Assembly (NCBI RefSeq): GCF_012033735.1
Contig: NZ_JAAVJD010000007.1
Span: 1-61,109 of the forward strand
Length of the DNA stretch: 61,109 nt
Reading direction: 5' to 3'
Source: Streptomyces lonarensis
Lineage (GTDB): Bacteria > Actinomycetota > Actinomycetes > Streptomycetales > Streptomycetaceae
The position numbers and the translations under genes were made by a program. Below are positions 2,911 through 20,957 of the stretch, piece after piece (the stretch's first letter is position 1; the number at the start of each line of letters is the position of its first letter). A model generated the notes under the pieces. That model searched no databases. It was given only the letters and a program-made list of their open reading frames with translations, and had not been told where the DNA came from.

Positions 2911-5082
2911 ATGCCACGACTGGCGCTCACGGAGGGTTTCCTCTCGGATTTCAGCTCGCTGGGCTCCCATGAACGCAAGCAGGTCACGGAGAGCATCAAG
3001 GCCTTCGGGAGCTTCTCCGTGTCGGAGCTGCGCGCGCACAAGGGCCTCCACCTCGAGAAGCTGCAGGGTGCCAGAGACCCGCGGATACGCACCATCCGGG
3101 TGTCGCGCTCCCTGCGCGGCGTCCTGCTGGCGCCGGATGACAGCAGCGAACTCTTCACACTGCTCCGGGTCCGTCCCCACGACGAGGCGAACTCCTGGGC
3201 CGTCAGCCGCGCATACTCGGTGAACAGCGCCACCGGCGCCCTGGAAGTACGGAACGTCACCCAGTTGGAACATCTGGAGACCTATTACGAAGATCGCGCC
3301 GTGGAGGCACCGAGCCGGTTGTTCGCCGCACACTCCGACACCGTCCTCCGCGACCTGGGCATCGACGACCAGGTGCTCCGGCTGGCTCGGATCTGCGTCG
3401 AGGAATCGGACCTCGCGGCGATGCGGCCGCCGCTGCTCCCGGCCGACCAGTTCGAAGCACTGGAGTACCTTGCCGCCGGGCACTCCGCGGACGAGGTGTG
3501 GGAACAGCTGATCGTGCCCCGGGGGCAGACGGTCCGCTCGGCCGACAGCCGCGAGCCGGTCACGACGTCCGAGGCCGTGTTGCGCAGCTCGGATCGGATC
3601 GTCGAGGTGACCAGCCCCGCCGAGCTCGATCGTGTGCTCTCGGGCGACTTCGAGCGCTGGCGGGTCTTTCTCCACCCGACTCAGCATCGGTATGCCTACC
3701 ACCCCCGGTACCGCGGCCCGGCTCAGGTCACGGGCGGCCCCGGTACCGGCAAGACGGTGGTCGCGCTCCACCGCGTACGGCATCTCCTTCGCACCGGGCT
3801 TCCGGAGGACCGCCTGCTGCTGACCACGTTCACGACGGCGATGGCCTCCACTCTTCGGGATCAGCTGGCACTGCTCCTGGGAGAAGCGGATGCCCATCTG
3901 CTGGCGCGGGTCGAGGTGACGACAGTGGACGCGTTCGCGGCTCAGGTACTCAAGGCCACGCCAGGGGGAGCACCACGACCGCTGACGGAAGCTTCCGAAC
4001 GGGCCGCGTGGAAGCGTGCGCTGGGTGACGAGCGGAGCGCATGGTCGGAACGGTTCCTGGCGCAGGAGTATCGGAACGTGGTGCTCGCGCAGGATCTCCG
4101 GACCGCGGCGGCATACCTCGCGTGCACCAGGCACGGCCGTGGATCGCAGCTCGGGCGGGTCCAACGGGCCCGGCTCTGGAAGGTCATGGAGCGGTTCCGC
4201 GAGGAGACCGCCTCGCGGGGCACGGCCACGTTCGCGCAGCTCGCAGCACGCGCCGCCGCGCGGTTGGCCGCGCACGGCCCGCAGTACCGGCACGTGGTCG
4301 TCGACGAGGCCCAGGACCTCCACCCGGCCCAGTGGCGCGTGCTGCGGGCCGCGGTGGCACCTGCGCCGGACGACATCTTCCTCGTGGGCGACCCGCATCA
4401 GCGGATCTACGACAACAGGGTGTCGCTTCGCTCTGTCGGCGTCCACGTCCGGGGGCGGTCCTCAGGGCTGCGCGTGAACTACCGCAGCACCGAGGAGATC
4501 TTGTCCTGGTCGGTCCGACTCCTCTCCGACCTGGCGTTCCACGAGCTGGGCGCGGACGACGAGGCGGACGGGGCCACGGATTCCCTGGCCGGCTGTCGCT
4601 CGGTCCTCCGGGGGCCGGTACCGACGCAGCGGGCGTTCGCCTCCCCGCGCGAGGAACTGGACGCCCTCGTCGCCCAGGTACGCCACTGGTCGGAGCGTGA
4701 CGGCGTGCCTCTTGCCGAGATCGCGGTGGGCGCGCGTCTCAACTCGACGGTGGACGCGGTGGTGGCCAGGCTGCGGCGTGACGGCCTGGCAGCCGTCGGG
4801 GTACGAGCAAGTCCCGCCCCGGGGTCGGCAGGTGTGCGGGTGTCGACCATGCACGGCCTCAAGGGACTGGAGTTCCGGTGCGTGGCCCTGGTGGGCCTGA
4901 CCTCCAGCGCCCTGCCGTATCTGCAACAGGTCTCCCCCGCGGACGAGGACCCCGCACAGCACCGCCACGACCTGCTGGCCGAGCGCTGCCTCTTGTTCGT
5001 CGCCGCGACGCGGGCACGTGACGCCCTGGCCGTGTCGTGGAGCGGCCAGCCGTCGTCGCTTCTCGATCCGACGACGCCCTGA
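2911..5082 (+). CDS. UvrD-like SF1 helicase with N-terminal RelE/ParE-like domain
   Basis: A 723-residue protein. Residues 1-100 look like a RelE/ParE toxin fold: a helical N terminus, then LHLEKLQGARDPRIRTIRV, a short arginine-rich strand ending LRGVLL, and a terminal strand LFTLLRVRPHDEANSWA. The rest is a UvrD/Rep-type superfamily 1 ATPase: GGPGTGKT near residue 275, VVVDEAQDLHP near 462, VGDPHQRIYD, NYRST, HGLKGLEF near 647 and VAATRARD near 697. The start at 2911 follows CAGGGGG. No separate antitoxin gene lies next to it, so the toxin-like domain is probably regulatory or DNA/RNA-binding within the helicase; that is inference. The gene converges on the giant helicase gene and shares a terminator hairpin with it. 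Similar fusions are often annotated simply as UvrD-helicase domain proteins in actinomycetes. Confidence 0.85.
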   Translation: MPRLALTEGFLSDFSSLGSHERKQVTESIKAFGSFSVSELRAHKGLHLEKLQGARDPRIRTIRVSRSLRGVLLAPDDSSELFTLLRVRPHDEANSWAVSRAYSVNSATGALEVRNVTQLEHLETYYEDRAVEAPSRLFAAHSDTVLRDLGIDDQVLRLARICVEESDLAAMRPPLLPADQFEALEYLAAGHSADEVWEQLIVPRGQTVRSADSREPVTTSEAVLRSSDRIVEVTSPAELDRVLSGDFERWRVFLHPTQHRYAYHPRYRGPAQVTGGPGTGKTVVALHRVRHLLRTGLPEDRLLLTTFTTAMASTLRDQLALLLGEADAHLLARVEVTTVDAFAAQVLKATPGGAPRPLTEASERAAWKRALGDERSAWSERFLAQEYRNVVLAQDLRTAAAYLACTRHGRGSQLGRVQRARLWKVMERFREETASRGTATFAQLAARAAARLAAHGPQYRHVVVDEAQDLHPAQWRVLRAAVAPAPDDIFLVGDPHQRIYDNRVSLRSVGVHVRGRSSGLRVNYRSTEEILSWSVRLLSDLAFHELGADDEADGATDSLAGCRSVLRGPVPTQRAFASPREELDALVAQVRHWSERDGVPLAEIAVGARLNSTVDAVVARLRRDGLAAVGVRASPAPGSAGVRVSTMHGLKGLEFRCVALVGLTSSALPYLQQVSPADEDPAQHRHDLLAERCLLFVAATRARDALAVSWSGQPSSLLDPTTP

Positions 5083-5146: not shown

Positions 5147-8100
5147 TCAGCAACTCACCTCGCGGACCCGTACCGTGGACTGCTTGCCCGGGGTCGCCTC
5201 GTAGGCCAGCTCGGTGCCCACCGTCTGCCACAGCAAGCGGGAGCCCAGCGGTGAGGAAGGAGAGATGGTCTCGGCGTCTTCACACGGCAGTTCGGCCACG
5301 GTGTACAGGACCTCCCGGTCCCAGCGGCCGTCGAACTCCAGGGAGACGAGCGCCCCGGGGACGACTGCTGCGGGCGCCTGCAGCGCCGGGTCGACCGTCG
5401 CGGTGTCCGAGAAGGAGCGCAGTACCCCCAGATGGTGGGCCCTGCGCTCACGCTGTTCCCGCAGCGTGCGCCGGAGGAACACCACGCGCGCGGCATCGGT
5501 CTCGCCGTCGAGGGGGTCGTCGGTTGCGCTGAGCGCTGCCTCCAGTTGGCGCATCTCGTCCATCACCCTTCGCAGCACCGCATACGGAACGGGTTCCCTC
5601 GTGGGATCGGGCAAGGACTCCTCGGTGGCAGAGGTCTCCTCGGTGGCTGCGGCCTCACCTGTCGCCCCGGCGGTGACGGGTTTCCCGGTGGGTTCGCCGG
5701 CGACGGCCGCGCTCTGCTGAACGGGGTCGGCCGCGTCCGCCACCCGCTCCGCTCCGTCGGGCTCTCCGAGGCCGCCCGGTTCGGACGGGACCGGCCCGGA
5801 GGGGACGGGCTCGCACGGGACGGGCTCGGGCGGAGTCGGTTCGATGCCGAGTTCCCCCAGCCGTACCCACAACGGCGCCAGCGCTCGCTCGCGGTCCAGG
5901 TGGAAGCGACTGGCCCGGATCCGGACAAAGACCCAGTCCACGCGTTCGAGGTCACGCTGACGACGCGCGGCGGTCTCCGCGTCCTCCCCCTCCGCGAACG
6001 AGTCGCCGTCGCAGCAGACCGCAAGCCGCCGGCTGCCGCCTTCGACCACCAGGTCGAGTGCGTGTCCGCCCACGCGGTACCCGGGCCGTACCCGGAACCC
6101 CCGAGCGGTGATCTCTCGGTAGACCAGCTGCTGGAACAGGTTGTCGAACGCCGGGTGCCGCACGTCCGGTCGGACCTCGCCATCGACGACCTGCTCGGGG
6201 GCGGCCTCGATCGGGCGGCTCAGATGGTCCAGCCAGTGCCGCCGCAGGTCGCCCGCGTGGAACTGGTCGGCGCGTGCACTGTGGAACACCCAGACCTGGT
6301 CCCGGGCGCGGGAGGCAGCGACGTTGAGGCGCCGCTCGTACGTGGGGCCGTTGAAGCCGCCCGGCACCGTTCCCGCTGCGGTGCTCGCCGAGTTCACACA
6401 GGAGATGAAGACGACATCGCGCTCGTCCCCCTGGAAGGCCGCCGCATCGCCGACGCGAAGGCGCCGCTGCTCACGTTGCTCGTAGCCGATCCGCTCGGCC
6501 AACAGGTTCTCCAGCTCCGTGGTGTGCGCCACGGCACTCCGCAGGACGATGACCCCCATCGTCAGCCCCGCGTAGGCCGGGTCGGCGCAGCTGCGGGCGA
6601 CCGCGTCGACGAGAGCTTCGACCTCCGCGTGGTTGACCAGGCGATTGCCGGCGCCCGTCACTTCTCCGTCCGGCACCTGGACCGTCCTCACCGGTGGCAG
6701 CCGGTCGGCCCCGAACTGGCGCAGCGGAAGCAGGTCACCGCTGTAGCACAGCTCGTTGGAGAAGGAGATGATCTCCGGCATGCACCGGAAGTGCTCCTTG
6801 AGCATGAGCGTTCCCCGGCCCGACGACAGCGCCTCGGTCAGGTCGAAGAAGCTGGAGTCCGGCCCGAAGAGACTCCGGATGTCCGGCTCCAGTTCGGTGA
6901 GGAGCCGGTCACGCAGCTGGAAGTAGTCCTCCCGTTTGAGACCCACGTTCTCCGGACTGACCTGCTTGCTGTCGCCGACCACGACCATCCGGTCCGCGAG
7001 CCAGCTCAACAGCATCGCCTCCAGCCCGGACTGGCTCGCCTCGTCGACGATGACGACGTCGAAGAGCCCGGGGCGGTCCATCGGCACGGTCTCCGCCACC
7101 TGGTGGAGGGGCATGATCCAGGCCGGGACGGCGCTCTGCGCCTTGGCCAGCGCCAGCTGCGCGTCCTTCCGGTACCGCTGTTGGTACTTGCCACGGATCC
7201 GGCCCGCTGCCTGCTGGTACGCCTTCAGCGCGCGGGACTGGTCGTCGGTCAGCAACCGGAGGCACTGGTGCCAGGCTTGCCGCGCGGCCAGGCGGCCGAG
7301 GGTGATGCGGGCCTCGTCATCGGCTTCGGTGAGCTGCCGGAGGAGCTTCTCCTCCGTCTGCGGGTCGGTGAGGCGTTCCAGGCGCTCACGCCAGGCCGTC
7401 CACGCCCAGGCCTGTGCCAGCCGCGGCAGCCGCTGGTCCCAGGCGGGGTCCTCCGGCGTTGTGACGATACGTTCGGCAAGGCGGGGGAAGGCCGCATCGA
7501 CCCGAGCGTGAGCGGCGTGCTGTTCGGCCCTGAGGCGCGCCGCCTCGCGGACCTCGGACAGCGTCTCGCAGTGCTGCCGGTACCGCTCGGTGTCGCGGTC
7601 GCGCACGGCGGCATGGGCCTCGGTCACCGCCGCGGCGCAACCTGGGCGATCGGTCCATGCGGAGAGCAGCTGCTCGGCGGAGTTGAGCAACTGCTCGGCG
7701 CTCTCGGCCTGCTGCACCCCCACCGCGGCACGCAGCAGGTCGCGGACCGCCTCGCGGGTCTTCTTCTCCTGCCACGGCGCGTCGGTCAGGCCGGGAGCGG
7801 CGGCGCCCACCGCCCCGAGGTCGATCCGGGCACGCACCACGGCGCACAACGCATCGAGCACCTCGAGGTCCTGCTCGATGCGCGCCACCCGCGACGCCGG
7901 CCCCTGCCACGGACGAGTCTCGCCGTACCACTCCGTCTCGGCCTCGCAGAGGCTCAGCTCGGCCAGGACGCGGGCGTGCACGACAGCAGCCGCTTCGGCG
8001 TCGTGCGGTGGCCGCCCGTCGACGGTCACCGCGTCGGCGAAGGTGCCGACGGACTTTGCAAGTCTGGTCCGCATCCCGAACGGGCCCCGCAGTCGACCTC

Positions 8101-10288
8101 CCTCGGCGAGTCCCTGCGACAACAGGGTCGCGGGGGCGAGAGCTTCCTGGGGTGAGTGCGCCTCCAGGCCTGCGACCCTCCGGGACCCGATCGTGGCGGT
8201 CGCCGCCGACACGTCGACCAGAGCCCGCACGAGACCGTCGCGGCGGGCCGTGATCCGGCGGTCGCGGCCGCGACGGGCCTCTCCCTCCAGGTCGACCGCC
8301 CAGCTGCCGGCGCCCTCCGCTAGATCAGCCGCCCGGGCACAGGCGGTGGTGAAGGCGTCGAGCCGCTCCGAGATGCGGTGCAGCTCCGGCGAGGTGAGTC
8401 CCCGCACGGCCTCATCGTAGGAGCGACACGCCTCGTTGGCGCGAGCACGTTCCAGCGCGTCGAACGCCTGCCGGGTGGTGGCCACCGCGCGGTCGAAGTC
8501 GCCCGGCCCCGGCAACTCGGCGGGGCCGGGGACCTCAGCTGCCAGCGCCTGCCGTTCCGGAGTGAAGGCGCGTGTCGCTCGCAGCAGTTCGAGCGCTTCC
8601 TCAGCGGTGAGCGAGGGCTGCTCGACCGGAACCGGCCCGAGCCACCGATGGGCCTCGGTCTCGGCGACGAGACGTTGCGCGATCTCCTGCAGACTGCCCT
8701 CGTAGTCGCCGATGTCGGGCTCGAAGCGGTGGGTCTCCTGGTTCCTCAGCACGGCCAGGTCGGCGAGGCGGACGCGTTGGGCGTCCCGTGCACGGTCGAG
8801 GCGCGTGCGGAGTGAGCTGATCTCCCGCTCCGCCGCCCCGGGGTCGTAGGTGGCGTACTCACGGAGGATGCGTTGGACCGATGCCTCGAGTTCCCGCTGC
8901 GCAGCCGACCCGTCCTCGGTACGGCTGACGCACAGATCGCGGACGGTGTCGGGGAGTTTGTCCCGCAGAACCCGCAGCGCGCGGGCGGTGTGGCTGGTGA
9001 TCAGCACACGCTTCCCCTGCGCCAGCAGGTCGGTGACGAGGTTGGCGATGGTGTGCGTCTTGCCGGTACCGGGCGGTCCCTGGACCACGACGAGACGGTT
9101 GGCCCGGAGCCGTCGGGCGATGGTCCGCTGTTCGTCGTTGGCGGGCAGGGCGAAGAAGACCTCACCACCGGTGGGGTCTTCTTCGCCGGCGGCGTGATCC
9201 GCCGCGGTGAGTGAGCCGCCGCGGCCGGCGATGTGGGCGAGCAGATCGGTGGGTTCCACCCCTTCGTCGACGGCTCGCGCGATGGTCTTGAGCGCGTCCA
9301 GCGTGGAGCTGCGATCGCGTTCGCGCAGGACCAGTGCGGGGGTGAGGCCGACCTGCGGGCTCTCCAGCGTCGCGGGACGTGCCCGCGAGATTCCCTGGTG
9401 GTAGGCGCCCGCCGCGTGTGCGGCGTTGACCCAGACCCGCAGGGCGTCGTGCACCGCGGTGAGGTGCGTGGCAGCCGTGAGATCGCCGGCGTCCGCCAGG
9501 CGGGCGATGATCTCCTCACGCACGTTGCCCGCCACGTGCTGCCCGCCGTCGAGCATGCCCTCTTCGAGCTCCGGCCCCATGGCGAGCGGGTCGGGCCCCG
9601 CGGACAGCGCTCCGCTCGCGCTGTCCAGGGTCAGGACCGCGCGGTGCGTGACGAGGTGACGCTCGACGCGGTGCCCCGCCTCGGACTGCCAGGTGAGCCG
9701 CCCCAGACCGAGGACGAGTTCGTTTGCCTCACCGAGCTCCGCGGCGTCCTCGTGCATCTTGTGGAGTCGGTCGTACAGCTCGACCTGGGGGTCCATCGCG
9801 CGGCGCCGTTCCGCCCACCCGAGCCACTCCAACCGCCAGGCGTCGTACGCCTTCTCGATGCGTTCGCGCTGCGGGTGGTCGTCCAGAACGTCGTAGCTCT
9901 TCTCCAGCGGCACCCCCTCCGACCAGTCGGGGAACTGCGGTTCGATCCGCCGCAGCAGCACGGGCGCCTGCGTCCGGCGGAAATCGCGCAACCCCGTCTC
10001 CTCCACCCAGAGCTCGATGAGCTCGGGCAGGGCCGGCGCCTCCTCCCGCGCCGGGCGTTCGACCCGCAGCCACGCCGGCGCCCCCTCCGTCAGCGGCGCG
10101 TCGAGCACCACGGACACCGCAGGGTCGGACGGAAGATCGTCGAACCAGACGATCCCCGCCACACCGTCGAGCGTCCTCCGCGGGCGGACTTTCGACTCCT
10201 CCGCGTCCGCCAGGAACCGGAAGATCTGTTGGACTCTTCTGCCGTCGATGCCCTGCGGCGGCACGTCGCTGTCCCCGTCATGGCCCAT
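5147..10288 (-). CDS. Giant SF1 helicase / Vsr-like nuclease / GreA-GreB C-terminal domain fusion
   Basis: A 1713-residue protein if it starts at the ATG at 10288; a TTG 75 nt upstream is possible. It has a long N-terminal region of unknown function. The SF1 (Dna2/Upf1-like) ATPase has GPPGTGKT near residue 405, a long helical insertion, VIVDEASQ near 1081 with GDSKQVSP just after, FQGDERDVVF near 1285 and NVAASRARD near 1325. Residues about 1380-1475 resemble the MTES_1575-type Vsr-like restriction fold (GHALDLVVEG, CDGD, RQRDLERVDWVFVRIRAS). In my recollection that family reads AVECDGD; here it is AVCCDGD, so an expected acidic residue is cysteine. After a proline-rich linker, residues about 1630-1712 match the GreA/GreB C-terminal domain (ISPSSPLGSRLL, VGTEL, TPGKQ). 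A role in phage or plasmid defence, perhaps acting at transcription complexes, is inference. Confidence 0.82.
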   Translation of the reverse strand: MGHDGDSDVPPQGIDGRRVQQIFRFLADAEESKVRPRRTLDGVAGIVWFDDLPSDPAVSVVLDAPLTEGAPAWLRVERPAREEAPALPELIELWVEETGLRDFRRTQAPVLLRRIEPQFPDWSEGVPLEKSYDVLDDHPQRERIEKAYDAWRLEWLGWAERRRAMDPQVELYDRLHKMHEDAAELGEANELVLGLGRLTWQSEAGHRVERHLVTHRAVLTLDSASGALSAGPDPLAMGPELEEGMLDGGQHVAGNVREEIIARLADAGDLTAATHLTAVHDALRVWVNAAHAAGAYHQGISRARPATLESPQVGLTPALVLRERDRSSTLDALKTIARAVDEGVEPTDLLAHIAGRGGSLTAADHAAGEEDPTGGEVFFALPANDEQRTIARRLRANRLVVVQGPPGTGKTHTIANLVTDLLAQGKRVLITSHTARALRVLRDKLPDTVRDLCVSRTEDGSAAQRELEASVQRILREYATYDPGAAEREISSLRTRLDRARDAQRVRLADLAVLRNQETHRFEPDIGDYEGSLQEIAQRLVAETEAHRWLGPVPVEQPSLTAEEALELLRATRAFTPERQALAAEVPGPAELPGPGDFDRAVATTRQAFDALERARANEACRSYDEAVRGLTSPELHRISERLDAFTTACARAADLAEGAGSWAVDLEGEARRGRDRRITARRDGLVRALVDVSAATATIGSRRVAGLEAHSPQEALAPATLLSQGLAEGGRLRGPFGMRTRLAKSVGTFADAVTVDGRPPHDAEAAAVVHARVLAELSLCEAETEWYGETRPWQGPASRVARIEQDLEVLDALCAVVRARIDLGAVGAAAPGLTDAPWQEKKTREAVRDLLRAAVGVQQAESAEQLLNSAEQLLSAWTDRPGCAAAVTEAHAAVRDRDTERYRQHCETLSEVREAARLRAEQHAAHARVDAAFPRLAERIVTTPEDPAWDQRLPRLAQAWAWTAWRERLERLTDPQTEEKLLRQLTEADDEARITLGRLAARQAWHQCLRLLTDDQSRALKAYQQAAGRIRGKYQQRYRKDAQLALAKAQSAVPAWIMPLHQVAETVPMDRPGLFDVVIVDEASQSGLEAMLLSWLADRMVVVGDSKQVSPENVGLKREDYFQLRDRLLTELEPDIRSLFGPDSSFFDLTEALSSGRGTLMLKEHFRCMPEIISFSNELCYSGDLLPLRQFGADRLPPVRTVQVPDGEVTGAGNRLVNHAEVEALVDAVARSCADPAYAGLTMGVIVLRSAVAHTTELENLLAERIGYEQREQRRLRVGDAAAFQGDERDVVFISCVNSASTAAGTVPGGFNGPTYERRLNVAASRARDQVWVFHSARADQFHAGDLRRHWLDHLSRPIEAAPEQVVDGEVRPDVRHPAFDNLFQQLVYREITARGFRVRPGYRVGGHALDLVVEGGSRRLAVCCDGDSFAEGEDAETAARRQRDLERVDWVFVRIRASRFHLDRERALAPLWVRLGELGIEPTPPEPVPCEPVPSGPVPSEPGGLGEPDGAERVADAADPVQQSAAVAGEPTGKPVTAGATGEAAATEETSATEESLPDPTREPVPYAVLRRVMDEMRQLEAALSATDDPLDGETDAARVVFLRRTLREQRERRAHHLGVLRSFSDTATVDPALQAPAAVVPGALVSLEFDGRWDREVLYTVAELPCEDAETISPSSPLGSRLLWQTVGTELAYEATPGKQSTVRVREVSC

Positions 10289-10852: not shown

Positions 10853-12196
10853 TCAGCCGCCGCCACGGCGGCGGCGGGTCCGCTCCGCCTGCGGCAGGGT
10901 GTCGTCGCTGAGCGCCGCCAGCACGAGATTGCGTTGCCCGCGGAAGGTGCGGATCACCTGCTGGCGCACCAGCTCGGTGCTGGTCCCCGAGGTTCCGATC
11001 TGGCCCGACTCCACCAGCCGGGAGAACAGGGTGTTGTCCAGGTAGCCGGGCACATTCTGGTAGCCGAACCGCACGGCGCCGCCCCGACCGTCCCGCAGCC
11101 GCGCGTCGCGGCGCAGTGCCTCGAACTGCCGCCGGGAGAAGTACATGCCGTGGATCATTTCGTTCGTGTGGCGCATCGTCGACTGCGGGTGGCAGAGCTT
11201 CACCCAGCTCGGGCTGGGGTCGAGACGCTGCTCGCCCTCCTCGCCCGCGATCCGGGCGGCATAACGGTCCAGTGCCTCCATGCGCCGCAGTTCCTCGCCG
11301 AACTTCCGGTCGCTGTTCGGGTAGTAGAAGCCCTTGCGTGCCGCGTCGAGCTTCTTGTACTGGACCAGGACGAGCGATTCGCGGGTCACGTTGTAGTAGA
11401 CGATGTCGCAGCCCAGCAGGGTCTCCGCAGGTGTCCGGTTGGCGTTGGCGACCAGCAGCGTCCGACCGTGCTCCCGGAACTCGCGCCAGGCGACATCGGA
11501 GGTCTCGGTGCTCAGCCATCCGAGCATCGTCTCGGCGTCGCGCGCGATGAGATGGTCCTCCAGCGCGGGGCGGGCGCGCCCACCCGCCAGTGCGAGGAAG
11601 GTGGGAGGTGGCCGGTCGACGTCCAGCTCACCCGCGGGCGGGTCCCACTCCGCGAGCTCCGTGGCGTCGAACCCCGCCATCCTCGCCGCCCCCAGCGTGG
11701 CGTCGCGTTGCAGCGCCACTTCCTGCGCCGCGCGGTTCTCGCCGAACGTCCACGGGGCGACCGCGCCTTCGATCAGCTTCACCGCCTCGGTGGCCGCCGG
11801 CCGCAGTCGCAGCAGCCCGTCGCGGAGCGCCTTGCTCACCCCGTCGGTCTGGTGGCCCTGCTCGGCCAGACGACGGTGTTGAACGGGGGCCAGCACGGCC
11901 AGCAGTTCGGTGAGCCGCAAGGGTTCGGCGAGTCGGAAGACCAGCGAGACGGTCAGCTGCTGGTCCTGGTCCTTCGCTGCCTTGCCTCGGACGGACTTCC
12001 CCACGTGCGTGACGTACATCTGCCCGTCGTCGTCCCGCGCAGCGATCAGCAGCAGCCGGCGGCTCCTGCCTTTGGCCCAGGGGGCCCGCGGCCGGGTGAA
12101 CGACCAGTTCCAGTCCCACCGCCGCAAGGCGTACAGATCTTCCTTCTGACGGAGGAAGTCGGCCTCATGATCCCAGCACTGCACGATCGCCACCAT
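10853..12196 (-). CDS. Uncharacterised protein with possible D...QxK (PD-(D/E)xK-like) nuclease motif
   Basis: I do not recognise a named family for this 447-residue protein. The C-terminal half contains LLGCDIVYYNV followed, about a dozen residues on, by LVLVQYKKL. The arrangement of strand, Asp, strand, Q-x-K is like the active site of PD-(D/E)xK nucleases that carry QxK. The segment KGFYYPNSDRKFGEELRRM follows directly. No signal peptide or membrane segment is seen, and the C terminus is basic (RTRRRRGGG). The ATG at 12196 has AGGA about 8 nt upstream; an ATG at 12205 has its ribosome site too close. It is divergent from pglW, 334 bp away, and lies between the giant helicase gene and BREX-2, so an accessory defence nuclease is a reasonable but untested guess. 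Confidence 0.7.
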   Translation of the reverse strand: MVAIVQCWDHEADFLRQKEDLYALRRWDWNWSFTRPRAPWAKGRSRRLLLIAARDDDGQMYVTHVGKSVRGKAAKDQDQQLTVSLVFRLAEPLRLTELLAVLAPVQHRRLAEQGHQTDGVSKALRDGLLRLRPAATEAVKLIEGAVAPWTFGENRAAQEVALQRDATLGAARMAGFDATELAEWDPPAGELDVDRPPPTFLALAGGRARPALEDHLIARDAETMLGWLSTETSDVAWREFREHGRTLLVANANRTPAETLLGCDIVYYNVTRESLVLVQYKKLDAARKGFYYPNSDRKFGEELRRMEALDRYAARIAGEEGEQRLDPSPSWVKLCHPQSTMRHTNEMIHGMYFSRRQFEALRRDARLRDGRGGAVRFGYQNVPGYLDNTLFSRLVESGQIGTSGTSTELVRQQVIRTFRGQRNLVLAALSDDTLPQAERTRRRRGGG

Positions 12197-12530
12197 GCAG
12201 GCCATCCTGCACGGTCGCCCCCGCCCCCGTCCCCTGGGCCCACGCAGCCTCCGGGAGGAACGCCCCGCCCGCTCCCCTCCCTGTCCATCGGAGAGCCGAG
12301 CGGTCCGACCAGTACGTCTTCGGACGCACCACAGGGCGCGCCCCCGGTCGCTCGCCAGTGCCCGTCCATCCGCCGGCCTGCCGCTGTGCGGCCGCTGTCG
12401 CTTCTGGACCGCTGGCTGTCGGTGTCACCGTCTAGGATTTCTTCCGGGATTTCGGCCGGGCGGCCCGGGACGCACCAACAAGAAGGCGACCGGCGCGCAC
12501 GGACATGAGCTGACACGGGGCGGGAGCCGC
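12197..12530. promoter_or_regulatory. Divergent promoter region upstream of pglW
   Basis: A 334-bp gap between the divergent uncharacterised gene and pglW with no gene in it. A TAGGAT at 12433-12438 resembles a streptomycete -10 element about 93 bp before the pglW ATG, but I find no well-spaced -35 partner. GGGAG at 12522-12526 is the pglW ribosome site. Confidence 0.35.
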
Positions 12531-15500
12531 ATGGAGGATGGCCGGTGGACGACGGTCACCGAGTCCGAGTTCGAGCACGAGCGCCGCGGTCTTGAGGCCA
12601 TCCGGAGGCTCCTGCCGAATGAGGAGCCCTGGCGTGCCTGGTCGAACTTCACCTTCACGGCGGAAAGGGGGCACGTCCGCGAGGTCGATCTCATGGTCAC
12701 CGCGCCGGCCGGTGTGTTCCTGATCGAGCTGAAGGACTGGCACGGGTCGGTGAGCGGTGGTGGGAGCAGCTGGGTGCAGACGAAACTCAGCGGTGTCCAG
12801 CGCCGGCACGGCAACCCGCTGCACCTGACCAACCAGAAAGCCAAGGAGCTGGCGGGCCTGATCAAGGGCGTCGAGAAGGGCGCCCGTAAACAGCCGGGGA
12901 TCTGGGTGGGTGAGGCGGTCTGCTTCACCCACGACAAGCTCCGGGTGAATCTGGCGAGCGCCGACCTGAACGGCGTCTTCACGATCCGGCAGCTGGTGGA
13001 AATGCTCGCTCGCCCCCCGGAGGGCGGCCGGGGGCAGGTGACCGCCGCGGTCTCGCTCCGGGTCGACGCGGCCCTCAAGAAGCTCGGCATCGCGCCCGTC
13101 CGACGTCAGCACGAGGTGGGGTCGTACCTCCTGGAGTCGAAGTCGTTCGACTCCGGTCCGACCTGGGCCGACTACCTGGGGCGTCACACCCAGCTGCACG
13201 ATCTGGCACGGGTGCGGGTCTTCCTCAGCGAACGGGGGGCGTCGGACGCCGCACGCGCCTCGGTGGAGAAGGCCGCCGCGCGTGAGGCCGCGGTGCTCAG
13301 CCGGTTCCGGCACCCGGGCGCCGTCCAGCTGAAGAGCTACCTGCCGTCGGGACACCCGGCGGGCCCGACCATCCTCTTCGACTACCACCCGGAGACCGTC
13401 AGGCTCGACGACTACCTCGTGGAACACGGCAAGCACCTCGACCTGCCCGGCCGTCTCGCGCTGGTCCGCCAGCTCGCCGAGACGCTCCGTTCCGCGCACT
13501 CCAACCGGCTCCATCACCGCACGCTGGCGGCGCATGCGGTGCACGTGATCCCGCGCAACCGCGGTCCGCGTGGGCACGAGCTGAGCGAGGAGCAGCGCTG
13601 GCTGAGCCCCCGGCTGCAGATCGCGGACTGGCAGATCGCCTCCGGCCACAGCGGCAGCCAGGGCAAGCCGCTGACGCATGCCACCTCCGGAGTCTCCGGG
13701 GTGCACCTCTCCCAGCAGACCGACCCGTATCTGGCACCCGAGCTGCGGATCCCGAAGGCGGACCCGGTCCGGCTCGACGTGTACGGGCTCGGTGTGCTCA
13801 CCTATCTCCTGGTCACCGGGCAGCCGCCGGGTGCGACCCAGGCTGAGGTCCTGTCCCGCCTGGAGGCAGGTGAGACGCTCGCCCCGAGCGCGCTGGTGGA
13901 CGGCCTCGATCCCGACCTCGACGACCTCGTGGAGGCGTCCACCGCGTACGAGCCGAGCCGCCGGCTCTCGACCGTCGATGACTTCCTGGAGATGCTGGAG
14001 TTCGTCGAGGAGTCGTTCGCCGCCAAGGACGTCAAGGACGCCGCGGACGGCGACTCGGCTTCCGGCGCTGGCCCGGCCTCGCCGGCCGGCGGGGAGCAGA
14101 CCGAGCCGGAGAAGGACCCGCTGGAGGCCGGCGCCGGTGACCTGCTCGCCGGGCGCTGGGAGGTCCTGCGCCGGCTCGGCACGGGCTCGACCGCGCGGGC
14201 ATTCCTGGTCCGCGACCTGGCGGGCGAGCCGCGTCGCAGTGGCAGCCTGCCGGTTGCGGTGCTCAAGGTCGCGCTCAGCGAGGCGAAGCACGTGGTGCTC
14301 GACAGGGAGGCCGATGTCCTGGCCCGGATCCACCGGGATTCCAGCATCATCGCGCTGTACGAGCGGGAGCCGCTGACCCTCGCGGGCCGCCGGGTGCTCG
14401 CCCTGGAGTACGTGGGTGACAGCCGCGCCCTGGACACGGAGGGCACGGGCAAGGCCGCCCGCAGACGCGAGGAGACCGTAGCCCGTCAGCTGCGGGACTA
14501 CGGCCGCCTCCGGATGGACCAGCTGGAGGTGTACGGAACGTATCTGTTCGGCGCGGTGGAGCACCTGGAGGCGGAGGGCATCTGGCACCGGGACCTGAAG
14601 CCGGACAACATCGCGATCCGGCTCCGTCCCAACGGCACCCGCCAGCTCGTGCTGATCGACTTCTCGCTGGCCGGATACCCCGCGAAGGAGATCGAGGCGG
14701 GCACCGAGGGCTATCTCGACCCCTTCGTCGGCGTCATCACCCGCAGTTCGTACGACGGCCACGCCGAGCGGTACGCGCTGGCCGTCACGCTGCACGAGAT
14801 GGCCTCCCGCGAGCTGCCCCGCTGGGGCGACGGGTCGGTCACGCCCCGGCAGACCGACGCGAAGGAGTGGCCGTACCCGCACCTGGCCGCCGACGCCTTC
14901 GACGACCCGGTCCGGGACGGCCTGGTGGCCTTCTTCCGCAAGGCCCTGGCCCGGGACGTGAAGGACCGCTTCCCGGACCTGAAGCCGATGGTGCGCGCCT
15001 GGAACGCGATCTTCCTGGACGCCCGGCGGACGACCGCGCCGAGCTCCGGGCACGGCAACACGACGGCGGCGGTGGAGGGCGCAGCGCCGCGGATCGGCCA
15101 GAGCGACGACGATGCCTCGGCCGAGGAGATCCGCGACAAGCAGGCCGAGCAGGCCGACCGTTCCACACCGCTGTCGGTGGCGGGCCTGACGCAGGCGGCG
15201 CAGTCCCAGCTGTTCGACCTGGGCCTGAACACCGTGGGGGACGTCCTCGACTACTCGGTGCGGAAGTTCCTGACGGCGCCGGGCATGGGCGCCCGGACCC
15301 GCACGGAGATCCAGAACCGGCAGAAGCAGTGGAACCTGCGGCTCGGCAGAACGCCGGCGCCGATGAGCAACGAGGCGCTCAAGGCCGCCCGCGAGGAGGC
15401 CACCGAGTTGGAGCAGGCGGTCGCCGAGTCGGTCGCGGCGGACGGCGGCGACACCGGCCGGGAGGTGCTGCGCGGGTTGAGCCTGGATGCCCTCGCCTCC

Positions 15501-17201
15501 CGCTTGGTGCCGCGCCCGTCGAGCGGCAGCGCCCGTTCCAACGCGACGGAGCGCGAGGCTGTCCGGCTGCTGCTGCGGCTTCCCGACGACAACGGTGTGC
15601 TGCCCGAGGGGCTGCCCTGGGTCCGGCAGGCGGACGTCGCCAAGGCCCTCGGCCTCACCGTGGGCCGCATCCCGCAGATCGTGAAGAAGGCGCGCGAGCG
15701 CTGGTACCGCGATGCCGCGCTGGGGCCGCTGAGCGACGACCTGGTCGAGCTGGTCGCCGAGCGCGGCCGGGTCGTGCCGGTGCTGGAACTCGCCGACGCG
15801 CTGCTCGCTCAGCGCGGCAGCAAGGTGGCGAAGCGTCGGGACCGGCGTGCGCTGGCGCTGTCGCTGCTGCGTGCGGTGGTGGAGCGGGAGCAGTTCCGGG
15901 AGCAGATCGAGGAGACGCCGCCGCGGTTCCGCTACTTCCACGCCCGGCTGCCCAAGGGCGCCGACCCGGTGCTCGGGCTGATCGTCATCGACGTCCGCGA
16001 CGGGGAGGGCAGTGACGACGGCGCGGACACCCCGACCCTGCCGGCGCTCCGCGAGTACGCGCTCAAGCTGGGCGCGCAGGCGGACGAGCTGGCGCGTCTG
16101 GAGTCCCTGCCGACGGCGAGCACGGTCCTCACCAAGCTGGCCGCGATCCGGCAGCCGCCGGGGAAGCTCGGCTGGGACGAGCGGCGGACGGCCGAGATCG
16201 CGGTCGCGGCCTCCCCGGGGGCCGCGCTCACGCCCCGCCTGGAGATCTATCCGCGCGATCTGGACCTCGTGCGCGCACTGCGGATTACCCAGGCCGGTGT
16301 GGTCGCCGTGCAGCCGGGTGTCGAGGAGGAGCGCCAGCCGGGTCTGACCGTCGACGCGCTGCACAAGCGGGTCGCGACCCGCTTCCCCGATCTGGGCGAC
16401 GATCCCCTCGTTCCGCGCGAACTGCCGGACGGCAGCGCGCTGGTGCGGTTGCTGAAGGAGGCCGGCTTCGAGCTGAAGCTGGCGACCCGCTACGACAAGA
16501 CCCTCCGGCTCGTCCCGGAGCTGCCCGCCGGAGAGTTCACCGGCGGTCTGACGTCGGCGAGTTGGGGCGCGACCTCGTCGGCGCGGCGGGCCGCGCCGAC
16601 GCAGTACGACGCGGACGCGGCGGTCGCGGCGGCGGTGAAAGCCGAGCAGCGGCTCGTGCATTCGGCGCGGCAGGACGGGTTCCGGGTCCTGACCGTGCCG
16701 CAGCAGGGCGCCGAGACGGCGGTACGACGGCTGGCCGACCAGCCCTATGGGGCGGCGGTTGTCTCGGTGACCGAGCTGTTCCTGGCCGAGCTGCGCGCCG
16801 TGATCGCCGAGGCGGCCAAGCCGACGTGGGAGACCGTCCTCAAGGCGGACGCCGCCGAGGCGGGCACCCGGCACCACCAGCAGCTGCGGGTCCGCACGGA
16901 CAAGGCGTGGGGGCGCGTCGAGCCGCTCCTTCGCGAGCGCCTGGCGCAGGCCGGCGGCCCGCTGCTCCTCACCGACACGGCGGCGCTCGCACGCTACGAC
17001 GCGTTCGACCTCCTGGGCCGACTCGCGGAGGAGTCACGGCAGGGCGGCAGCCCGCTGTGGCTGCTCGTCGCCCAGTCCGACCCGGCGCGCGCGCCGAGGC
17101 TGGCCGGGCAGAACGTGCCATACCAGGCCGGGTTCGACGAGTGGATCGTCGTGCCGGACGCGTGGGTGGCGCGGAAACATCTGCCGCCGGACGCCGCCTG
17201 A
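12531..17201 (+). CDS. pglW: BREX-2 system protein kinase PglW
   Basis: A 1556-residue protein with PglW architecture. Residues about 12-130 are a NERD nuclease-related domain (EVDLMV, FLIELKDWHG). A first kinase-like domain follows, about 200-490. It lacks the HRD loop: HHRTLAAHAV near residue 327 stands where HRDLKPxN should be, so it looks like a pseudokinase. The second kinase domain, about 540-840, is intact: RLGTGSTARAF glycine loop, AVLKVA lysine near 579, HRDLKPDN near 685 and IDFS in place of DFG. Further on are a helix-hairpin-helix-like stretch about 883-937 and a helix-turn-helix-like segment near 1030-1056. Pgl studies in S. coelicolor treat PglW as the kinase of the phage growth limitation system. 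It is followed 88 bp later by pglX. Confidence 0.95.
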   Translation: MEDGRWTTVTESEFEHERRGLEAIRRLLPNEEPWRAWSNFTFTAERGHVREVDLMVTAPAGVFLIELKDWHGSVSGGGSSWVQTKLSGVQRRHGNPLHLTNQKAKELAGLIKGVEKGARKQPGIWVGEAVCFTHDKLRVNLASADLNGVFTIRQLVEMLARPPEGGRGQVTAAVSLRVDAALKKLGIAPVRRQHEVGSYLLESKSFDSGPTWADYLGRHTQLHDLARVRVFLSERGASDAARASVEKAAAREAAVLSRFRHPGAVQLKSYLPSGHPAGPTILFDYHPETVRLDDYLVEHGKHLDLPGRLALVRQLAETLRSAHSNRLHHRTLAAHAVHVIPRNRGPRGHELSEEQRWLSPRLQIADWQIASGHSGSQGKPLTHATSGVSGVHLSQQTDPYLAPELRIPKADPVRLDVYGLGVLTYLLVTGQPPGATQAEVLSRLEAGETLAPSALVDGLDPDLDDLVEASTAYEPSRRLSTVDDFLEMLEFVEESFAAKDVKDAADGDSASGAGPASPAGGEQTEPEKDPLEAGAGDLLAGRWEVLRRLGTGSTARAFLVRDLAGEPRRSGSLPVAVLKVALSEAKHVVLDREADVLARIHRDSSIIALYEREPLTLAGRRVLALEYVGDSRALDTEGTGKAARRREETVARQLRDYGRLRMDQLEVYGTYLFGAVEHLEAEGIWHRDLKPDNIAIRLRPNGTRQLVLIDFSLAGYPAKEIEAGTEGYLDPFVGVITRSSYDGHAERYALAVTLHEMASRELPRWGDGSVTPRQTDAKEWPYPHLAADAFDDPVRDGLVAFFRKALARDVKDRFPDLKPMVRAWNAIFLDARRTTAPSSGHGNTTAAVEGAAPRIGQSDDDASAEEIRDKQAEQADRSTPLSVAGLTQAAQSQLFDLGLNTVGDVLDYSVRKFLTAPGMGARTRTEIQNRQKQWNLRLGRTPAPMSNEALKAAREEATELEQAVAESVAADGGDTGREVLRGLSLDALASRLVPRPSSGSARSNATEREAVRLLLRLPDDNGVLPEGLPWVRQADVAKALGLTVGRIPQIVKKARERWYRDAALGPLSDDLVELVAERGRVVPVLELADALLAQRGSKVAKRRDRRALALSLLRAVVEREQFREQIEETPPRFRYFHARLPKGADPVLGLIVIDVRDGEGSDDGADTPTLPALREYALKLGAQADELARLESLPTASTVLTKLAAIRQPPGKLGWDERRTAEIAVAASPGAALTPRLEIYPRDLDLVRALRITQAGVVAVQPGVEEERQPGLTVDALHKRVATRFPDLGDDPLVPRELPDGSALVRLLKEAGFELKLATRYDKTLRLVPELPAGEFTGGLTSASWGATSSARRAAPTQYDADAAVAAAVKAEQRLVHSARQDGFRVLTVPQQGAETAVRRLADQPYGAAVVSVTELFLAELRAVIAEAAKPTWETVLKADAAEAGTRHHQQLRVRTDKAWGRVEPLLRERLAQAGGPLLLTDTAALARYDAFDLLGRLAEESRQGGSPLWLLVAQSDPARAPRLAGQNVPYQAGFDEWIVVPDAWVARKHLPPDAA

Positions 17202-17289
17202 CGTACGGCGGATCGCCGCCTCTTCTCTCCTCCTTCTCGTCCCGCCTTCTAGTCACCCAGCCACCCAGTCACCACTTCGGGAGCAGTCC

Positions 17290-20200
17290 GTGATCGACCG
17301 CAAGAGCCTCCTCAGCGACCTGCAGAAGCAGGTGAAGGCGGCAGAGACCGACCTGGACGCCCAGGTCAAGACCGTTCCGGAGGTCGGGGCACGGCTGCGC
17401 AGTGAGTACGACCAGGCGAAGAAGGTGGGGCGGACGGCGGCGACCTGGAACTCCTGGCTCGGGGAGCGGGTCACGCAGGTCGCGGTGGCGTGGGTGCTCG
17501 GCACGGTCTTCGTCCGGTTCAGCGAGGACAACCGGCTGATCACGGAGCCGTACATCACGGCGCCGGACGTGGCGGGGCGCGAGGTCGCCCAGGCCCGGTA
17601 CGAGGACTACATGGCGAAGGACGCCGACCCGACGTACCGCGGGTGGCTGGAGACGGCGTTCGCGGAACTGGGCGCGGGGCAGGCGGGGCGGCTACTGTTC
17701 GACCAGGACCACAACCCGCTGTACCAGATTCCGCTGTCGCACGACGGGGCGGGAGCGCTGCTGGCGTTCTGGCGGGAGCAGAAGTCGGTGGAGCCGGAAG
17801 CGGAGGACGGCTCCGGCAGCACGTCGGTGCTGGTGCACGACTTCACCGACGCGCTGAGCGAGGACGGCACGGAGGGCTGGGACACCCGGTTCCTGGGTGA
17901 CCTGTACCAGGACCTGAGCGAGGCGGCGCGAAAGACGTACGCGCTGCTCCAGACCCCGGAGTTCGTGGAGGAGTTCATCCTCGACCGCACGATGACGCCT
18001 GCGGTGCGGGAGTTCGGTTTCGAAGAGCTGAAGATGATCGACCCGACGTGCGGGTCGGGGCACTTTGTGCTGGGCGCCTTCCGGCGGCTGGTTCGGCTGT
18101 GGAGTGAGGAGCGGCCGGAGGTCGGCGCGTACGAGCGGGTGCGGGCATCGCTGGAGTCGGTGCACGGGGTGGACCTGAATCCGTTCGCGGTGGCGGTGGC
18201 GCGGTTCCGGTTGCTCGTTGCGGCGATGGCGGCGAGCGGAATGCGGACGTTCGCGACGGCGCGGGAGTACGACTGGCCGATCCATCTGGCAGTGGGTGAC
18301 TCGCTCATCAAGGACCGGCAGTTGGAACTGCCGCTGACGCTCGGCGAGGAGAGTGCGCCTGGCGACCCGCTGGCCGAGTTCTCGTACGCGACAGAGGATG
18401 TGCACGAGCACCCGGGAATTCTGCAGCAGGGGCGCTACCACGTGGTGGTGGGCAACCCGCCGTACATCACGGTCAAGGACAAAAAGCTGAACGAGCTTTA
18501 CCGGGAGCTGTACGACGCATGCGCAGGGAAGTACGCATTGTCGGTTCCCTTCGCACAGCGGTTCTTCGAACTCGCTAAGCGCGGCATGGACAACGGGCAC
18601 GATTGGGGGATGGTCGGCCAAATCACAGCCAGGTCGTTCATGAAGCGGGAATTCGGCGCGAAGCTCATTGAGGAATTCTTCGCGCAGAAAACTGAGCTCA
18701 CCGAAGTAATCGACACCTCGGGGGCTTATATCCCAGAGCATGGAACGCCAACGGTTATCTTGGTCGGTAGGCCGAGGAGCGGCGGCAGACGATCGACGTC
18801 GACGCGAACAGCCCGCGGCGTGCAAGGGGAGCCAATCACACCCGAGAACGCAGAGGAAGGATTGGTTTGGCGGGCAATCGTGGAGCAAATTGATAGGCCT
18901 GGATCCGCCAGCCAATGGGTGTCAGTGGACGACTTGGAGAGCGAGCGTTGTTTCGGAAAGCATCCGTGGGTTCTAACTGCCGGCGGACAGGAAATGATCG
19001 ACTCACTCAACAAAGGTGCAGCGGCAAAACTTTCCTCGATCGTTGAATCTGTAGGATCGAGCGCCATTACCGGGGACGACGACCTGTTCATCATCCCCAA
19101 TCCGTCAGCCCGATGGGTCAACCTGAACATTCACCCCCTTCGCCCATTTCTCGAAGGTGATCAAGTTCGCGAATGGAGCTGCACCCCGGCAGCAAGCGCT
19201 ATCTACCCTATGGGGGCGACCCCCAAAGAGCGCCAAACCCTGGAGAAGGTTCAGCTCTGGCCAGGCCGCAGGATCCTCCGCGGGACTCTATACTTCGGAA
19301 AGACTAAAGAGCAACGATCCATGCCATGGTCAGATTACGCCTTCCACAAGGCAGATCGACTGCAATCACGATTCTTGATTACATTCTCTTTCGTTGCCAC
19401 CCATAATCACTTCGCACTCGATCGAGGTGGGCGCATCCACAATAAATCCGCCTCCGTGATCAAGCTCCAGAAAGGGGTAACCGAGAAAGATTACATTCAG
19501 ATTCTCGGACTACTCAATAGCTCCACATCTGGATTCTGGCTCAAAATGGTGAGCCACAATATGGGCGCTGGAGGGATTGGCGGAGGGATTGCCGCAGAGC
19601 AATGGGAACAGTTCTACCAATTCAACGGAACCAAGATCAACGAATTTCCTCTTCCGGGCGACTTTCCCACGATTCTCGCTACCGAGATCGACTCTCTCAC
19701 CCAGGACCTGTTCACTGCGACCCCAGCCGCACTGGTGGCTGAATCTCTTCCCACTGTCTATGCGCTGCGTGAAGCCCAAGCTCGCTACGACATCACCCGA
19801 GCCCGTATGATCGCCCTCCAAGAGGAGCTCGACTGGCAGGTCTACTCCCTCTACGACCTGCACTCCGAGGACCTGCGTCTGCCCGACTCATCCGCTGTCC
19901 CGGAACTTGCCCTCGGTGAGCGGGCCTTCGAGATCGTCCTCGCGCGCCGAGTCAAGGCCGGCGAGGCAAGTGGTGAGTGGTTCAAGCGGCACGGGTCCAC
20001 GCCCATCACCGACATCCCCGCCCACTGGCCTGACGACTACCGCGCTCTCGTGCAGAAGCGGATCGAGGTCATCGAGTCGAACCGTGCCATCGGCATGATC
20101 GAGCGTCCGGAGTACAAGCGGCGCTGGGCAACCGAGGGGTGGGACTCCATGCGGCAGAAGGCGCTGAAGTCCTGGCTGCTCAATCGCATCGAGAACCGCT

Positions 20201-20952
20201 CCTACTGGTTCGACGCGAACGACAACCCCACCGTCACCACTCTCGCCCGCCTCACCGAAGCCCTGTCCGCCGACGAGGACTTCACCTCCGTTGCCGACCT
20301 CTACGCCCCCCGGCAGGACCTCGCCAAGACCGTCCGCGATCTGCTCTCCGAGGAACACGTCCCCTTCGTCTCGGCTCTTCGCTACAAGCCCGCCGCGCTC
20401 AAGAAGCGGGCTGACTGGGAGCACGTCTGGGATCTTCAGCGGGAGGAGGACGCCGCGCCGGACGAGCCCGCCAAGCGGAAGATTCGGGAGCGGACGCCCG
20501 TACCGCCGAAGTACACGTCGGCCGACTTCCTCAAGCCCAGTTACTGGCGGGCCCGCGGCAAGCTCGACGTGCCCAAGGAGCGGTTCGTCTCGTACGGCAC
20601 GGTGAACGCGCAGTCGCCCGAGCTGTACGGGTGGGCCGGCTGGGACCACCTGGAGCAGGCGCTCGCGCTGGCCTCGTACATCCAGACCGCCGGTCTCAGC
20701 AACGAGGAGATCGTGCCGTTCCTGGCCGGCCTGCTGGAGCTCCAGCCCTGGCTGGACCAGTGGTACGGCGAGTACGACGCCGAGTTCGCCGCGTCCCCCG
20801 CCGCCGAGATCCTCGCCTTCCGCCAGCAGAAGCAGGGCGAGCTCGGTCTGAGCAACGACACGCTGCGCGCCTGGCGCCCCGCCCCCGCCACCCGCGCGAA
20901 GAAGGCCGCCGCCCCCAGGAAGAAGGCAGCGGCCTCCGCAGAGTCCGCCTGA
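17290..20952 (+). CDS. pglX: BREX-2 system adenine-specific DNA methyltransferase PglX
   Basis: A 1220-residue N6-adenine methyltransferase. The SAM-binding motif DPTCGSGHF is near residue 250 and the catalytic NPPY near 387; the long C-terminal part should contain target recognition. In BREX it marks host DNA and takes part in attack on unmarked phage. In S. coelicolor PglX is toxic without PglZ. The GTG at 17290 follows GGGAG. Codons from about 18480 to 19800 are much AT-richer than the rest of the gene, starting just after NPPY. The S. coelicolor gene is reported to phase-vary through a G tract; I see no comparable tract here, the longest I noticed being six C at 20306-20311. A hairpin follows the stop. 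Confidence 0.95.
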   Translation: MIDRKSLLSDLQKQVKAAETDLDAQVKTVPEVGARLRSEYDQAKKVGRTAATWNSWLGERVTQVAVAWVLGTVFVRFSEDNRLITEPYITAPDVAGREVAQARYEDYMAKDADPTYRGWLETAFAELGAGQAGRLLFDQDHNPLYQIPLSHDGAGALLAFWREQKSVEPEAEDGSGSTSVLVHDFTDALSEDGTEGWDTRFLGDLYQDLSEAARKTYALLQTPEFVEEFILDRTMTPAVREFGFEELKMIDPTCGSGHFVLGAFRRLVRLWSEERPEVGAYERVRASLESVHGVDLNPFAVAVARFRLLVAAMAASGMRTFATAREYDWPIHLAVGDSLIKDRQLELPLTLGEESAPGDPLAEFSYATEDVHEHPGILQQGRYHVVVGNPPYITVKDKKLNELYRELYDACAGKYALSVPFAQRFFELAKRGMDNGHDWGMVGQITARSFMKREFGAKLIEEFFAQKTELTEVIDTSGAYIPEHGTPTVILVGRPRSGGRRSTSTRTARGVQGEPITPENAEEGLVWRAIVEQIDRPGSASQWVSVDDLESERCFGKHPWVLTAGGQEMIDSLNKGAAAKLSSIVESVGSSAITGDDDLFIIPNPSARWVNLNIHPLRPFLEGDQVREWSCTPAASAIYPMGATPKERQTLEKVQLWPGRRILRGTLYFGKTKEQRSMPWSDYAFHKADRLQSRFLITFSFVATHNHFALDRGGRIHNKSASVIKLQKGVTEKDYIQILGLLNSSTSGFWLKMVSHNMGAGGIGGGIAAEQWEQFYQFNGTKINEFPLPGDFPTILATEIDSLTQDLFTATPAALVAESLPTVYALREAQARYDITRARMIALQEELDWQVYSLYDLHSEDLRLPDSSAVPELALGERAFEIVLARRVKAGEASGEWFKRHGSTPITDIPAHWPDDYRALVQKRIEVIESNRAIGMIERPEYKRRWATEGWDSMRQKALKSWLLNRIENRSYWFDANDNPTVTTLARLTEALSADEDFTSVADLYAPRQDLAKTVRDLLSEEHVPFVSALRYKPAALKKRADWEHVWDLQREEDAAPDEPAKRKIRERTPVPPKYTSADFLKPSYWRARGKLDVPKERFVSYGTVNAQSPELYGWAGWDHLEQALALASYIQTAGLSNEEIVPFLAGLLELQPWLDQWYGEYDAEFAASPAAEILAFRQQKQGELGLSNDTLRAWRPAPATRAKKAAAPRKKAAASAESA
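18480..19800 (+). other. AT-rich mosaic segment inside pglX (putative exchanged specificity region)
   Basis: Sixty-base blocks counted by hand here run about 45-60% G+C (for example 19441-19500 at 45% and 18661-18720 at 48%), against about 67% in blocks at 17881 and 19861. Codons such as AAA, ATT and TTG become common. The frame stays open throughout. The left edge falls about 10 codons after NPPY. Confidence 0.75.
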
Positions 20953-20957
20953 ACAGT

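Follow-up and report, generated by a model that had tools for sequence, protein, structure and literature searches.

The Gre-factor-like tail of a large helicase marks one clade, in the Streptomycetaceae, whose attached Vsr-like nuclease domain has lost conserved active-site residues and whose genes lie in a defensive neighbourhood. The tail as a clade mark, the clade-wide loss of the nuclease site and the neighbourhood are new. The protein under study is encoded in a 61,109-nucleotide stretch of Streptomyces lonarensis DNA (contig NZ_JAAVJD010000007.1; hereafter the window) at 5147..10288 on the minus strand. It comprises a superfamily 1 (SF1) helicase, a PF18741 nuclease-like domain and a Gre-like tail in 1713 amino acids (aa). 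This three-part architecture, put forward in the original prediction, was borne out by profiles, genome search and fold modelling. We propose, with confidence somewhat short of even, that this Upf1/Sen1-type helicase docks on RNA polymerase and, driven by ATP, strips or stalls transcription of invading DNA within an actinobacterial anti-phage island. Because a conserved active-site residue is missing from its nuclease part, it likely stops transcription and does not cut DNA.

The gene call rests on the open reading frame (ORF), the profile matches and the pattern of GC content at third codon positions (GC3). The interval holds a single long minus-strand gene, ORF 5147-10363, whose stop ends at 5147 and whose likely start is the methionine at 10288. 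This ORF had the top GC3 score against overlapping ORFs. A plus-strand reading of 5147-10288 was ruled out by several stops in frame 1.

The Gre-factor-like module covers residues 1569-1713 (5150..5584, minus strand), with hairpin helices at 1569-1587 and 1599-1629, an acidic loop, and an FKBP-like beta domain at about 1640-1713. The Pfam GreA_GreB profile (PF01272) scored 17.7 bits on the tail, below its cut-off of 26.9, and the Gre assignment therefore needed further support. NCBIfam GreA matched residues 1610-1708 at 5.4e-6, although its 26.2 bits are far under the whole-protein cut-off of 161. A search of the whole genome with the protein (E 0.001 or better) returned only itself and one greA-like gene (E 4.8e-6, 31% identity, residues 1611-1708), which from its sequence we read as the genome's own greA. 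Direct comparison of the tail with this GreA-like protein gave 30% identity over 101 aa, and profile comparison gave 97.5% probability. In the AlphaFold2 model of residues 1549-1713 (predicted local distance difference test, pLDDT, 88.3) the tail has the two-part Gre fold of helical hairpin and FKBP-like domain, and the 14 best PDB matches of this model were all Gfh1, GreA, GreB or Gre-like entries. A chance match was rejected because the only other genome match is the greA-like gene and the fold search agrees. The predicted Gre domain was thus not refuted in full: neither the Pfam nor the NCBIfam profile reached its cut-off, but the genome's own GreA and the fold support it. The tail resembles Gfh1, GreA and GreB in having a helical hairpin and an FKBP-like domain; it differs in its fusion to a helicase, its shorter first hairpin helix and a hairpin tip that does not keep the sequence of the genome's own GreA. 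The hairpin and acidic loop are conserved along with the FKBP-like part, and the loop carries an invariant Asp in 25 of 25 aligned rows, with a register that is unsure.

A protein search returned 4332 homologues at E 1e-3 or better; among the best 120, those with an organism name were Streptomyces or Actinacidiphila. Scanning of species genomes gave 48 loci (L handles), 27 from Streptomycetaceae and 21 from other groups. The Gre module was present in all Streptomycetaceae copies with a readable end, the exceptions being L009, where it lies in another frame, and L021, which meets a contig edge. In L009 (Streptomyces, 14400-15240) the Gre stretch is out of frame with the helicase, and the break in the linker is either real or an assembly error. 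Other lineages end differently. Tail-less Nocardiopsidaceae copies (Thermobifida L024; Nocardiopsis L026 and L030) stop 2-11 residues past the nuclease-domain match. Streptosporangiaceae relatives carry an Lsr2 DNA-binding tail over cut-off in L036 (1.1e-14) and L041 (5.3e-14), more weakly in L034 and L039 (under cut-off) and in L035 and L038 (by eye), while L037 and L043 have short tails without Lsr2. The Desulfovibrio relative L032 ends in DUF3320. When Lsr2-tailed L036 was used as the query of a second protein search, 34 of the best 120 matches listed had a precomputed Lsr2 domain.

In a tree of 49 helicase cores the Gre-tailed sequences grouped in a single clade, whose sister group was the tail-less Nocardiopsidaceae; both the Gre clade and the join had a Shimodaira-Hasegawa-like approximate likelihood ratio test (SH-aLRT) value of 100; the 49 rows were treed by a quick method with midpoint rooting and a long-branch warning, and the Gre states of L009 and L021 were assigned by clade. 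Of 61 genomes drawn from the genus (G handles), 17 had PF18741 over cut-off. Four of those places were cut out: G009 and G032 hold a Gre-tailed helicase, and G019 and G053 hold relatives without a Gre match at 1e-6. The Gre-tailed helicase is thus present in at least 3 of the 61 genus genomes, counting the window's own and with four other places examined; G032 is probably the same record as L029, one of the 27 loci, and so probably adds no further case. The plasmid search gave 445 records with distant matches, none spanning 80% of the query, and the best 15 of the 445 all end before the Gre tail.

Relatives often begin earlier than the window protein. In 114 of 120 annotated relatives, the position that aligns with window residue 20 is preceded by at least 60 residues (median 236). 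This stretch is alike in the relatives inspected (P0005, P0111 and L020 9482-9991). The one sequence of it tested had no Pfam match, and neither the window nor L018 yielded a match to the stretch.

The nuclease domain, a Vsr-like PD-(D/E)xK member (PF18741, MTES_1575; residues 1385-1477, 5858..6136, minus strand), scored 72.7 bits in Pfam against a cut-off of 38.2, so its predicted Vsr-like nature stands. Its site keeps Asp1412, but alignment places Cys1425 (codon 6014..6016, minus strand) at the conserved Glu and Ala1432 at the conserved His. Cys1425 lies in AVCCDGD (residues 1423-1429). The original prediction had taken AVECDGD as the family form and suspected an inactive or altered nuclease. 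AVECDGD is indeed the form of most Gre-less relatives, but the Gre clade reads mostly AVACDGD.

Site residues were surveyed in 289 sequences, some proteins being counted twice (as locus and as protein match) and both protein lists being top-120 lists. A Gre profile, built from 25 alignment rows that match it by construction, split these into 145 with the tail and 144 without a match. Eight of the latter were left out, leaving 136: six without the nuclease stretch (including L047, a broken Streptomyces copy), together with L009 (tail in another frame) and L021 (contig ending inside the gene), which belong to the Gre clade despite giving no profile match. Glu was absent from 143 of the 145 Gre-tailed sequences (Ala 138, Cys 3, Ser 1, Val 1) and His from all 145, which supports the suspected alteration. 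The two that retain Glu, L017 and L031, are the earliest branches inside the Gre clade. The clade still has the first Asp of the site and the one in the CDG motif. Among the 136 evaluable Gre-less sequences, Asp, Glu and His are all retained in 102, Glu is kept without His in 17, and Glu is replaced by Gly in 17, two of which retain His.

L018 and P0004 have the same Cys as the window at the Glu position, and elsewhere in the clade Ala predominates, which rules out a private mutation or sequencing error. The E-to-C change is no one-off, because most of the Gre clade went from E to A; the window Cys is the local form of a clade-wide, mostly E-to-A loss. The survey of homologues for the E-to-C change thus found the loss of Glu throughout the clade, but Cys only as a rare form of it. 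Nor is site loss exclusive to the Gre fusion, because 17 Gre-less sequences have inactivated sites. A strict one-to-one switch between nuclease loss and Gre tail is weakened by these 17 and by the 17 more that lost His. The Glu-to-Gly change in Gre-less relatives (P0171, P0172, P0176 and others) is a separate inactivation.

The motor was recognised by Pfam AAA_11 (3.1e-16) and AAA_12 (1.6e-15). The first part of RecA-like domain 1A (AAA_11, residues 384-461; 8906..9139, minus strand) contains the Walker A motif GPPGTGKT (residues 404-411), conserved among aligned relatives. Domain 1A is split in the AlphaFold2 model by an all-helical insertion of ~590 aa (residues about 461-1050; 7139..8908, minus strand), which measures 595-602 aa in the six sequences measured, Gre-less ones among them. 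Alignment places the Walker B (motif II) sequence DEASQ at residues 1082-1086 (7031..7045, minus strand); it is present in 167 of 169 aligned sequences, the remaining two being gapped. RecA-like domain 2A (AAA_12, residues 1158-1335; 6284..6817, minus strand) follows. The best Foldseek matches of the motor were SETX, Dna2, Sen1 and Upf1; a second fold comparison had Ighmbp2 and Upf1 among the best, with nsp13 and UvrD close in score. With AAA_11/AAA_12, intact Walker A and DEAxQ motifs and a Upf1-like fold, the core belongs to the Upf1/Sen1-type SF1 helicases. All 145 Gre-tailed sequences keep the Walker A Lys and the motif II DE. Because these ATPase residues are kept and the nuclease Glu and His are lost, we infer that Gre-tailed proteins combine a working motor with a disabled nuclease.

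Neighbours were counted in the 48 loci within no more than 10 kb on either side, many contigs being short. Convergent to the window helicase is a gene for a 723-aa UvrD/GajB-like helicase with a RelE-like N-terminus (2911..5082, plus strand; profile matches). A RelE-like/UvrD helicase gene accompanies the helicase in 25 of 27 Streptomycetaceae loci but in 0 of 21 other loci, and so tracks the Gre clade. It is missing from L017, a short contig, and L021, where the contig ends inside the helicase gene, and it lies upstream instead in L031. Clustering of neighbours across the 27 Streptomycetaceae loci gave GmrSD-like (20), drmA (18), drmB (17), an unnamed 293-aa gene (16) and drmC (13), identities being taken from PADLOC and Pfam on L005. 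The nine loci without drmA comprise contigs that are too short (L017, L021, L022) and loci where it is absent from the available stretch (L006, L009, L018, L020, L027, L031). In G009 and G032, GmrSD, the 293-aa gene, RelE-like/UvrD and drmABC stand beside the Gre-tailed helicase in the same order. Wadjet jetC and jetD are present in L018, which at 93% identity is the closest relative locus. Outside the Gre clade, DrmD-like genes occur in L036 and L041, the former also with a DrmMI/IIG-like gene, and in L030, where the highest PADLOC score goes to a model labelled DrmA (1316 bits), with DrmD at 1291.

Defence is the best-supported context of the Gre-tailed helicase; its neighbours match BREX, DISARM, GmrSD and Wadjet models. 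The suggested defence-island setting thus received support from the BREX cluster of the window and from the drmA and RelE-like/UvrD counts, and homologues are not confined to housekeeping neighbourhoods. A fixed BREX partner was ruled out: when the window's Pgl genes were sought in the 48 loci, within flanks of 10 kb or less, only L024 had one such neighbour, brxHI, about 9 kb from the helicase relative.

Several further features of these loci were seen. The GmrSD-like and 293-aa genes (L005 5618-9091; L056; L057) lie divergently upstream of the helicase, in 20/27 and 16/27 Streptomycetaceae loci, respectively. The GmrSD-like restriction gene has an extra MGMT-type DNA-binding domain in its L005 copy. 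Near tail-less Nocardiopsidaceae relatives lies a DEDDh-type exonuclease, a possible alternative partner (L030 14607-16199, by PADLOC PDC-S48 and Pfam RNase_T; L024 3017-4612 and L026 5224-6933, by eye).

Known Gre-fold members plug into the secondary channel of RNA polymerase. We favour a motor that docks and strips or stalls transcription because an intact motor, a lost nuclease site and a tail of this channel-plugging fold come together, and HelD provides an analogue. Starting from the architecture, conservation, predicted fold and gene linkage, we can outline how docking, motor direction, the dead nuclease and the immune outcome might fit together. The Gre-like hairpin and acidic loop would enter the secondary channel, a contact suggested by the predicted fold, the swapping of tails and conservation. 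The motor would then pull nucleic acid against the anchored polymerase and release or arrest the complex, by a logic like that of HelD or Sen1. The former nuclease domain, predicted from its lost residues no longer to cut, would likely bind DNA or play a structural part. Linkage suggests that the convergent RelE-like/UvrD helicase may join the same response, along with DISARM proteins in most relatives. A broader and more doubtful idea is that the tails are interchangeable address tags, sending the same Upf1/Sen1-type motor of an immune helicase family to AT-rich foreign DNA in one lineage (Lsr2) and to RNA polymerase in another (Gre). The Gre version, with its nuclease given up, would then be a transcription-terminating immune motor that shuts down the transcription of invading DNA, a bacterial counterpart in logic of Sen1 or HelD.

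Without any polymerase contact, the Gre-like tail of a defence helicase could serve only as a platform to which other proteins bind, such as the RelE-like/UvrD helicase or the Drm proteins. Many different proteins are bound by FKBP-like domains, and the 25/27 against 0/21 distribution of the RelE-like/UvrD gene fits such a role. A simple platform would not need the hairpin and acidic loop, however, which are conserved along with the FKBP-like part, and we consider this explanation unlikely. The Gre module might also sense a phage-altered or occupied polymerase and switch on the helicase, which would act on DNA and not on the polymerase. Tails that vary among relatives on a constant motor are expected of a sensor slot, but with the nuclease residues lost any effect on DNA would seem to need a partner nuclease, which leaves this scheme improbable.

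Retention of the first Asp and the CDG Asp in the clade, with a PF18741 match over cut-off, is what an active nuclease with an altered metal site would predict; the protein would then restrict DNA as an ordinary helicase-nuclease does, with its action steered to transcribed DNA. With Glu lost from 143 and His from all of 145 Gre-tailed sequences, we give this little credence. Equally little weight falls on a role outside defence, in which the protein would do housekeeping work in transcription-coupled repair or in the recycling of stalled polymerase. Its fold relatives, which are HelD-like and Sen1-like, and a linked UvrD-type helicase speak for it, but the gene is patchy (confirmed in 3 of 61 genus genomes, the window's own included and four other places examined) and its neighbours match BREX, DISARM, GmrSD and Wadjet models.

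If the docking motor that we favour is correct, immunity would act at the infected cell's RNA polymerase via a Gre-type ligand, with no DNA cutting, and exchangeable C-terminal tags would decide the target of one motor. This would join anti-phage helicases (UPF1-like, DISARM, ARMADA), polymerase recycling motors (HelD, RapA, Mfd) and xenogeneic silencing (Lsr2). Natural contrasts are provided by relatives that are tail-less with an intact nuclease site, Lsr2-tailed with an intact site, and Gre-tailed with a lost site.

Elsewhere in the window, the first 110 aa of the convergent neighbour had no Pfam match; we take them to be RelE-like from likeness in layout to ArmD (PMC12458937). On the same strand as the helicase and upstream of it is a 450-aa gene (10853..12205, minus strand) with no Pfam or PADLOC match. 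Its 44 homologues are mostly unnamed or hypothetical, three being named NERD domain-containing protein in UniRef, and a 98% identical copy lies upstream of the L018 relative. By eye it contains a D...QxK stretch resembling that of a PD-(D/E)xK nuclease. A type 2 BREX (Pgl) cluster follows (12195..33443, plus strand; Pfam and PADLOC), made up of pglW (12195-17201), pglX (17290-20952), a PglY-like gene (22960-26856), PglZ (26856-29792), BrxD (29863-31224) and a BrxHI-like helicase (31296-33443; DEAD/Helicase_C domains, 59% identity to the L024 BrxHI), all on the plus strand. It has the type 2 set of pglW, pglX, pglY, pglZ, brxD and brxHI, with PglY assigned by position and a DUF6079 match of 21.2 bits, just under the cut-off of 23. 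Between pglX and the PglY-like gene lies a helix-turn-helix (HTH)-DUF5753 gene (21184-22068, minus strand). GC content drops to about 60% over pglX, and just beyond BREX a PIN-domain gene and a ribbon-helix-helix gene (33728-34656, minus strand) form a toxin-antitoxin-like pair. The helicase adjoins the cluster but is no BREX core protein. The genes drmA, drmB and drmC were not recognised among the window ORFs scanned.

Some relatives bear the automatic annotation 'transcription elongation GreA/GreB family factor', so the Gre match has already been seen by pipelines. No description of a Gre-helicase fusion was found in titles and abstract openings of open-licence PubMed Central without supplements, and none of clade-wide nuclease loss, tail swapping or the conserved island in open-licence PubMed Central, supplements lying outside the search. 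The whole word 'GreA' does not occur in the main texts of PMC12458937, PMC11090510, PMC12839542 (BREX diversity) and PMC10853773.

The best profile matches over the helicase were the ProA, Hhe, PDC-S37 and Mokosh helicase proteins (NCBIfam/PADLOC), the first three also spanning the nuclease, but ProA and Hhe fall far under their curated cut-offs (183.5 against 1500 and 115.5 against 2000 bits). CnuH of type III-B CoCoNuT is described in sections of PMC11090510 as a UPF1-like helicase with a fused Vsr-like nuclease, and its relatives there have a helical extension too. The protein shares this plan of UPF1-like SF1 helicase and Vsr-like nuclease; in contrast to CnuH, it has a Gre tail and an inactivated nuclease site, and a Pfam scan of 15 window ORFs (1-38073) gave no McrB-type GTPase (CnuB), the opposite flank being the contig end. 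For ARMADA, sections of PMC12458937 describe YprA helicases with Vsr nucleases and also a RelE-GajB-like fusion, ArmD of type II. The convergent neighbour shares the ArmD layout but stands beside a Upf1-like helicase and, mostly, DISARM drmA, not a YprA-like helicase.

The nearest working analogue is HelD/HelR, which has a similar motor fold. To our knowledge, HelD has no FKBP-like or nuclease-like domain. In the sections of PMC7749167 drawn on here, HelD is an SF1-related motor that anchors by an arm superficially similar to GreB and clears nucleic acid from polymerase. That secondary-channel arm is N-terminal (PMC7749167), whereas here the Gre module is C-terminal with an FKBP-like domain, on a Upf1-like core and in a defence setting. 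The HelD layout, an N-terminal arm and then SF1-like 1A/2A with a clamp arm, is thus absent from the window protein, which lowers the case for membership of the HelD family but not the working analogy.
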